DNA of 64,000 nt from an uncultured Pelagibacteraceae bacterium (GTDB lineage Bacteria; Pseudomonadota; Alphaproteobacteria; Pelagibacterales; Pelagibacteraceae): NCBI GenBank assembly GCA_902523495.1, contig CABYZU010000002.1:1-64000 (forward strand), in the 5' to 3' direction. Position numbers and translations under genes: made by a program. The notes beneath the pieces were generated by a model. The model was not told the DNA's origin, did no database searches, and was given only the letters and a program-made list of their open reading frames with translations. This document shows positions 26,063 to 46,073 of the stretch, piece by piece. Each line of letters opens with the position of its first letter. Position 1 is the first letter of the stretch.

Positions 26063-26383
26063 ATGGCAATTCAAAAAGCTAAATTCTCAATAGGTGATAT
26101 TGTAAAACATAAACACTTTGACTTTAGAGGTGTGATTTATGACGTTGATTTTGAGTTTAATAATTCTGAAGAATGGTACCAATCCATTCCAAAAAATGTA
26201 AGACCTAGAAAAGATCAACCTTTTTATCATCTGTTGGCTGAAAATGATGAAATCACTTATGAAGCATACGTTTCTGAGCAAAATCTTCTAGTTGATGACT
26301 CAGATGAACCAATAAAACATCCTCTAATTGAGGAAATTTTCTCTGGAAAAAAAGGATCTAGCTATTTTAAGCTATCTAATTAA
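26063..26383 (+). CDS. hspQ: Heat shock protein HspQ
   Basis: The 106-residue protein has the HspQ/YccV hallmarks: AKFSIGDIVKHKHFDFRGVI at the start, DVDFEFNNSEEWY, and QPFYHLLAENDEITYEAYVS. HspQ is a small hemimethylated-DNA-binding-like protein that acts as a specificity factor for Lon protease. Length is typical. It is a single gene followed by the hairpin at 26450-26521. Confidence 0.93.
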   Translation: MAIQKAKFSIGDIVKHKHFDFRGVIYDVDFEFNNSEEWYQSIPKNVRPRKDQPFYHLLAENDEITYEAYVSEQNLLVDDSDEPIKHPLIEEIFSGKKGSSYFKLSN

Positions 26384-26449
26384 ATCAATCACTTTTTTAA
26401 CACATTTAGCTCAAACCTTTGACACAGCAATTTGTTTATATAGGTTAAT

Positions 26450-26521
26450 TCTGATCAAGGGTGCTACTTATTTACCCTTCGTTATTATCTCCCTCTAGCA
26501 TTCTTGATCAGGCAGTTTTTT
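26450..26521 (+). ncRNA. Candidate small RNA or attenuator hairpin upstream of the ccm operon
   Basis: CTGATCAAGGGTGCTA (26450-26465) pairs with TAGCATTCTTGATCAG (26495-26510) as one unbroken 16-bp helix with two G-U pairs. It encloses a 29-base pyrimidine-rich loop that contains ACCCTTC and TCTCCCTC. Four bases after the stem comes a run of seven T (26515-26521), giving the form of an intrinsic terminator. An alternative inner hairpin AAGGGT/ACCCTT (26456-26461 with 26473-26478) competes for part of the stem. A perfect TTGACA lies at 26418, but no -10 box sits at the usual distance. It could be a free sRNA with a C-rich seed, a terminator for hspQ, or an attenuator for ccmC. Confidence 0.6.
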
Positions 26522-26541
26522 CATAATAAAAATAATTCCAT

Positions 26542-27249
26542 ATGTTTAAATATTTTGAACCAAATAAAATCTTTTCGATAACATCAAAAGCTCCTAAGTA
26601 TGTTTTATTTTTATTTATTGTCATTCTTTCGATAGGATTAACAGAAGCATTAATATTATCTCCTGAGGATTACAAACAAAGTCACTCTGTTAGAATTATG
26701 TATGTTCATGTACCAGCAGCTTGGATTTCGTTAGGAATTTTTTCTTTTATTACTTTTTTATCTTTAGTTGGATACATTTTTAAGTTAAGAAATTTTTTTT
26801 TAATTGCAAAAAGTTTGGCACCCTCTGGATTGGTATTCAATATAATAGCTCTTGTTACTGGCTCAATATGGGGAAAACCTACCTGGGGAACATGGTGGGC
26901 TTGGGACGCAAGAATTACCTCTATGTTAATATTAGCACTATTTTACTTAATGTACGTTGTTGCGTGGAGAATATTTGAAAATGATGATAAAGTATTTAAA
27001 GTTACATCAATTGTTTCAATTTTAGGAATAATTAATGTTCCTATCATAAAGTACTCAGTAGATTGGTGGAATACATTGCATCAACCAGCTTCAATTAACA
27101 TTCTATCGAAATCATCAATTGATGTTTCAATGCTCTTTCCTTTGTTAATAATGACTGCGGCATTTGCCCTATTCTCACTACTGATTTTTTTAATGAAATA
27201 TAATACAGAACTGATAAAAATTAAAAATAAAGGGTTAGATAGATTATGA
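26542..27249 (+). CDS. ccmC: Haem exporter/handling protein CcmC
   Basis: CcmC presents haem to the chaperone CcmE in system I cytochrome c maturation. The 235-residue protein has six hydrophobic helices and the WWD motif GTWWAWDARITSM near residue 115, flanked by histidines in MYVHVPAAW and WWNTLHQPAS that bind haem. It heads a row of six ccm genes and overlaps ccmD by four bases. A structured element lies 21 bases upstream. Confidence 0.96.
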   Translation: MFKYFEPNKIFSITSKAPKYVLFLFIVILSIGLTEALILSPEDYKQSHSVRIMYVHVPAAWISLGIFSFITFLSLVGYIFKLRNFFLIAKSLAPSGLVFNIIALVTGSIWGKPTWGTWWAWDARITSMLILALFYLMYVVAWRIFENDDKVFKVTSIVSILGIINVPIIKYSVDWWNTLHQPASINILSKSSIDVSMLFPLLIMTAAFALFSLLIFLMKYNTELIKIKNKGLDRL

Positions 27250-45987: not shown

Positions 45988-46073
45988 CCGCAAAAACATT
46001 AAATTTGCGGTGTCTTTGGAAACAAAGAGATCGACACTAGTCAGCGAGGGTTCGCCCACTAGTGCGTTTGCTG
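45988..46073 (+). promoter_or_regulatory. Structured 5' leader of ffh: three hairpins and a pseudoknot (candidate regulatory RNA)
   Basis: Three hairpins follow each other. Hairpin 1 is CCGCAAA (45988-45994) with TTTGCGG (46004-46010). Hairpin 2 is TCTTTG-GAAA-CAAAGA (46013-46028) with a GNRA tetraloop. Hairpin 3 is CACTAGT (46035-46041) with ACTAGTG (46058-46064), extended by CG/CG around a bulged A, with an inner GGG-TTCG-CCC (46048-46057). The six bases CAGCGA (46042-46047) inside hairpin 3 can pair with TTGCTG (46068-46073) just outside, forming a pseudoknot with one G-U pair. The tetraloops favour the plus strand, hence the ffh leader. It ends 15 bases before the ATG, and no Shine-Dalgarno is evident. 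I do not match it to a known RNA family. Confidence 0.6.

Follow-up and report, generated by a model that had tools for sequence, protein, structure and literature searches.

What does a long hairpin with a C-rich loop do in the short gap between hspQ and ccmC of a SAR11 bacterium, and in what form, as RNA or as DNA, does it act? SAR11 are among the most abundant bacterial groups in the sea. The stretch analyzed here, termed 'the window', is 64,000 nucleotides of an incomplete, 873-kb SAR11 assembly (G000). In it, the YccV-like gene hspQ (positions 26063–26383, forward strand; Pfam PF08755, E 5e-30) is followed after 158 bp by ccmC (26542–27249, forward strand; PF01578, E 6e-32), and the hairpin lies inside this gap. 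ccmC heads a run of cytochrome c maturation genes—ccmD, ccmE, ccmF, the redoxin-type ccmG, and ccmH follow it—that extends to 30649. The hairpin is real and strongly conserved, and we discuss below what it is made of, how it has been kept, from where it might be transcribed, and what it might do.

The hairpin and its conservation

The 5' arm (26450–26466, forward strand) and the 3' arm (26496–26512, forward strand) were placed by folding and covariation. They enclose a loop of 29 nt (26467–26495, forward strand), the size given in the first-pass annotation, which also reported a 16-bp helix; there are 17 bp when the outer U-G pair is counted, and 16 when it is not. A 131-nt stretch folds with a z-score of -3.5, and none of 200 shuffles folds as well. 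When the 64-kb window was scanned for stems of 15 bp or more, with a minimum of five G-C pairs and a loop of 15–35 nt, this hairpin was the sole match; the same scan of six copies generated by a first-order Markov model of the window returned 0, 0, 0, 0, 2 and 0. A run of T does come after the stem, although it comprises six T (26516–26521, forward strand) rather than the seven first counted, and does not follow immediately but begins 4 nt after the stem.

All 94 distinct hspQ–ccmC gaps examined in the same genus contain the hairpin. Plain blastn recovered the region in many of 150 same-genus genomes, and 79 of 101 yielded ccmC. A covariance model built from genus elements and run on same-genus genomes returned one element per genome in approximately 150 of them, with E below 1e-8; its other matches were at chance level, making the element single-copy. 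At the same-genus loci inspected, hspQ is 5' and ccmC is 3' of the element, and the gap is 151–201 bp. The alignment of 53 non-redundant genus elements has 98.6% of its cells paired, with both-side changes in 10 of 15 pairs, and none of five measures was reached by any shuffle. Matches of this model to other genera were not strong. Inspection upstream of ccmC in five other genera revealed a hairpin of the same design and different stem sequence (e.g. GCCTAATTGGGGATT/AATTCTCAATTAGGC and GTCCAGTTTGAAG/CTTCAAACTGGAC), stems ranging from 12 to 17 bp among elements. Across the family (20 elements, six genera), 97.9% of cells are paired, 11 of 12 pairs have changed on both sides, and the covariation score is 0.875, whereas shuffles give 0.425 and sliding gives no more than 0.24. 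Since this covariation spans stems that differ in sequence, the stem sequence is free and the pairing is what is kept. Loss of pairing among relatives had been named at the outset as grounds for abandoning the element; pairing is conserved at both levels. In every case, in the genus and beyond it, the element lies directly 5' of ccmC on the same strand, and this and the covariation bear out the initial proposal of a functional structured RNA linked to the cytochrome c maturation genes.

The T-run, by comparison, is a lineage-specific addition and not a conserved part. A run of five or more T within 14 nt of the stem is present in 33 of the 94 elements of the genus; the nine elements from other genera have none. 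With the T-run not conserved, there is no general support for the first suggestion, an sRNA that stops at a terminator of its own, nor for an attenuator.

Beyond SAR11, matches to the loop-plus-arm pattern were found in viral and other sequences, and none comprises the full hairpin. A class-wide search with a second model gave one match outside the family, on a short contig (G521:C48, L385) binned with a genome from a different order of Alphaproteobacteria. This contig has the order hspQ–element–ccmC, and its hspQ and ccmC are SAR11-like (90% and 79% identity); we judged it to be contamination. The element thus occurs in Pelagibacteraceae, the single match elsewhere being explained by contamination, within the limited sensitivity of a search that missed a known positive (G151), for which reason absence outside the family is weak evidence.

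The loop

The loop is far better conserved than the stem sequence. Its near-invariant motif, UUAUCUCCCUC in the genus (26485–26495, forward strand, from alignments of relatives) and CUCCCU as a family-wide core, stands 0–4 nt 5' of the 3' arm, with one to three additional C in some lineages. The core is predicted to be unpaired, with a mean probability of 0.96 across relatives, and so the single-stranded, C-rich loop noticed initially is indeed there, and is the most conserved part of the element. As the part kept by selection, the loop is most likely the working part of the RNA, and its invariance implies a partner.

The first-pass annotation envisaged pairing with G-rich ribosome-binding sites and proposed target prediction against those of SAR11; the prediction yielded no enriched target. 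As a general mechanism, such pairing is doubtful because SAR11 seldom uses these sites. Counted over the window and 400 kb of stretches from one relative (G012, L342–L361), 10 of 364 ORFs are preceded by AGGAG, against a chance expectation of 3.3, and 18 by GGAG, against 11.8; these are rough counts since the first ATG was taken as the start. Matches to GAGGGAGA before ATG were considered as Shine–Dalgarno targets and rejected: there are 26, forward and reverse, including the element's own antisense, and the readable cases lie in coding frames. Over seven genomes, TTATCTCCCT occurs elsewhere at control level. Target statistics, based on the window and those 400 kb, showed no enrichment, and no partner of the loop was found.

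The upstream block and predicted promoter

Upstream of the hairpin, column conservation reveals a 39-bp block (26388–26426, forward strand) of four direct repeats with an 11-bp period, marked by CA at 26390, 26401, 26412 and 26423. Its consensus is nTCATTnTTTA / AACACAnTTAG / nTCAAAnCTTn / GnCAnA, with CA at offsets -22, -11, 0 and +11. The block most resembles itself at lags of 11 and 22 (column permutation p = 0.0018 and 0.005; combined 0.0002). Versions of the block are visible in other genera, and no second copy was found in the window or in 400 kb of a complete relative. At offset +24 is a predicted -10 hexamer, TTATAT in the window (26436–26441, forward strand) and TAnnnT across the family (T 97%, A 89%, T 73%). 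Counting 7 from it places the predicted transcription start at 26448 (approximately 26447–26449, forward strand). In 90 of 91 elements, the stem begins 0–5 nt after this position, the exception bearing an 18-nt insertion.

Judging from this arrangement, the element apparently has a promoter of its own and opens the transcript for cytochrome c maturation. Repeats arrayed in tandem every 11 bp, immediately 5' of a -10, are a signature of OmpR/PhoB-type regulators, and the block is most likely the binding array of a response regulator of this type. The ChvI site of Sinorhizobium meliloti, GCC-N8-GCC, has the same period and a different sequence (PMC9731502). SAR11 is reported to possess only two sigma factors and four two-component systems (PMC13198564). 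A conserved GACA block was considered as the -35 and rejected, its spacing to the -10 not being normal; a sigma-70 scan gave no promoter at the block. Among the 94 same-genus elements, no conserved promoter or ribosome-binding site occurs between hairpin and ccmC, and hence the upstream promoter is the conserved one; an extended -10 before ccmC, tried as a second promoter, occurs in nine of these versus 11.8 in shuffles.

Association with ccmC

In the family to which the element belongs (f1), ccmC is placed after hspQ, detached from ccmB. In the sister family (f2), ccmC follows ccmB, and the element is absent from the genomes examined (L314, L315 and L324, compared with window positions 26063–27249). 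The coincidence of gene order with presence of the element represents one evolutionary event. In one genome (G200:C2, L317), an ABC transporter permease gene occupies hspQ's place, and the block, the hairpin and ccmC are still together. That they stay together beside a different neighbor is suggestive only, because hspQ sits at the edge of another contig. In a further genome, ccmC (G024:C1:26576-27281; upstream region L099) is in two frames with stops, by frameshift or sequencing error, and the hairpin upstream is intact.

What the element might do

The reading we favor, to which we give about an even chance, is that the element is the 5'-terminal leader hairpin of the ccmC–ccmH transcript, with the C-rich loop as a docking site. 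A protein, most likely a response regulator of the OmpR/PhoB type, would bind the four direct repeats with their 11-bp spacing and control a dedicated promoter in the hspQ–ccmC gap, and RNA synthesis would start 0–5 nt before the hairpin. The T-run is missing in most lineages, so intrinsic termination is not the general rule, and polymerase should read on into ccmC. The 12–17 bp stem at the start of the mRNA should shield its 5' end from decay; a 5'-terminal stem-loop can stabilize mRNA (Emory 1992, as cited in PMC6237742). At the CUCCCU loop a partner in trans, either an RNA-binding protein or a G-rich RNA, would dock and adjust how stable the cytochrome c maturation mRNA is or how well it is translated. 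The layout is that of a 5' mRNA leader: the predicted promoter lies upstream and the gene downstream, on the same strand, with no conserved terminator between. The unconserved T-run, the lack of a second promoter, the contrast between the two families and the linkage in the permease-bearing genome all favor a leader. Against it counts the window's own lineage, which carries six T past the stem; partial termination may occur there.

Published expression data bear on the leader in both directions. In strain HTCC1062, which presumably carries the element given its near-universality in the genus, ccmC mRNA was up approximately 10-fold in sulfur-limited stationary phase in one comparison, and 4.7-fold over the control in stationary phase (PMC5069961). 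In the published tables examined, ccmC appears alone among ccm genes as induced, which counts against the leader, because a simple leader of a shared operon would not predict it. The text of the HTCC7211 start-site paper does not mention the hspQ–ccmC locus (PMC5069720).

The main alternative, possible although we consider it rather unlikely, is that the same promoter produces a free-standing or processed, trans-acting sRNA of approximately 70 nt, whose CUCCCU pairs with a G-rich target RNA and to which ccmC is a mere neighbor. The predicted RNA start at the hairpin, the unpaired, near-invariant loop on a drifting stem, and the six T of the window's lineage would all suit such an RNA, and C-rich sRNAs of alphaproteobacteria (e.g. 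alphaR8/SisA) act through UUUCCUCCCU (PMC12559287). However, the element has no conserved terminator, adjoins ccmC in every case and is single-copy, Shine–Dalgarno motifs are rare in the genus, and target searches showed no enrichment. An sRNA may also be cut from the leader, or arise by partial termination in T-run lineages such as the window's. More doubtful still, in our estimation, is a picture in which a family-wide SAR11 regulatory RNA, under a two-component response regulator, combines trans action through CUCCCU with a place at the 5' end of the ccm transcript.

We think it improbable that the hairpin is the intrinsic terminator of hspQ, or an attenuator before ccmC. A strong hairpin followed by six T in the window, and runs of at least five T in 33 of 94 relatives, speak for these; but a GC-rich stem leading directly into a U-run is not what most lineages, or any of the nine elements from other genera, possess. 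Even in the window the stem and the start of the T-run lie 4 nt apart, the loop spans 29 nt, and its sequence is conserved as no terminator needs; the element has, moreover, its own promoter block. The competing inner hairpin described initially can form in the window, where AAGGGU pairs with ACCCUU, at -6.7 kcal/mol versus -21.8 for the long stem. It can form in just nine of the 94 relatives, however, and so is not a conserved switch of the kind an attenuator employs. Least probable of all is a DNA-level operator in which a protein binds the inverted repeat TGATCA...TGATCA of the window's arms, for elsewhere the palindrome is lost and the pairing kept (TGACCA with TGGTCA; GCCTAATTG with CAATTAGGC), G-U pairs are frequent in the stem, and conservation is highest in the loop.

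If the leader is correct, SAR11 would have a concrete and testable circuit in a conserved RNA with a regulated promoter, placed before an essential respiratory assembly operon, and this would be a candidate explanation of the reported response of ccmC to sulfur limitation. If the RNA acts in trans, it would represent regulation in organisms that scarcely use Shine–Dalgarno sequences.

Comparison with known systems

The hairpin element matches no catalogued RNA family. Rfam 15 has none above its gathering threshold, and nothing credible at relaxed thresholds; the ccmC region is absent from the table and text of the Pelagibacter RNA survey of Meyer et al. (2009), and our literature search found no account of an hspQ–ccmC element. 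By C-rich motif, the closest known RNAs are alphaR8/SisA and CcsR/cuckoo, but these differ from it in structure and synteny. alphaR8 (SisA–D in Caulobacter) is likewise alphaproteobacterial, with a single-stranded C-rich motif; the 10-mer is UUUCCUCCCU there and UUAUCUCCCU here, identical at 8 of 10 positions. In alphaR8 the motif is 3' of a weak hairpin, before a separate Rho-independent terminator, whereas here the loop of a single long hairpin (12–17 bp), with no conserved U-run, contains it. alphaR8 usually, but not strictly, accompanies a gene for N-formylglutamate amidohydrolase (FGase) rather than hspQ and ccmC; FGase (PF05013) had no match in nine SAR11 genomes, the Caulobacter control being positive.

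CcsR/cuckoo RNAs are C-rich, with anti-Shine–Dalgarno-like loops, and resemble the element in this and in being alphaproteobacterial. They are associated with DUF1127 genes, with RpoH promoters and with a Rho-independent terminator, and often occur as several copies (PMC10253847). The element, in contrast, is single-copy and neighbors hspQ and ccmC instead of DUF1127 genes. The block upstream of it looks like 11-bp direct repeats followed by TAnnnT. The mRNA-stabilizing stem-loops of Escherichia coli also stand a few nucleotides from the 5' end (here, the predicted one), but need no conserved loop sequence, whereas this loop is nearly invariant. In the window itself, the ffh motif of Rfam (RF01793), a known SAR11 element, scores 55.1 bits at 46020–46072 (forward strand) and overlaps the start of an ORF at 46062. 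Like the RNAs of Meyer et al. (e.g. the ffh, rhtB and pntA elements), the hspQ–ccmC hairpin is structured, intergenic and family-restricted in SAR11.
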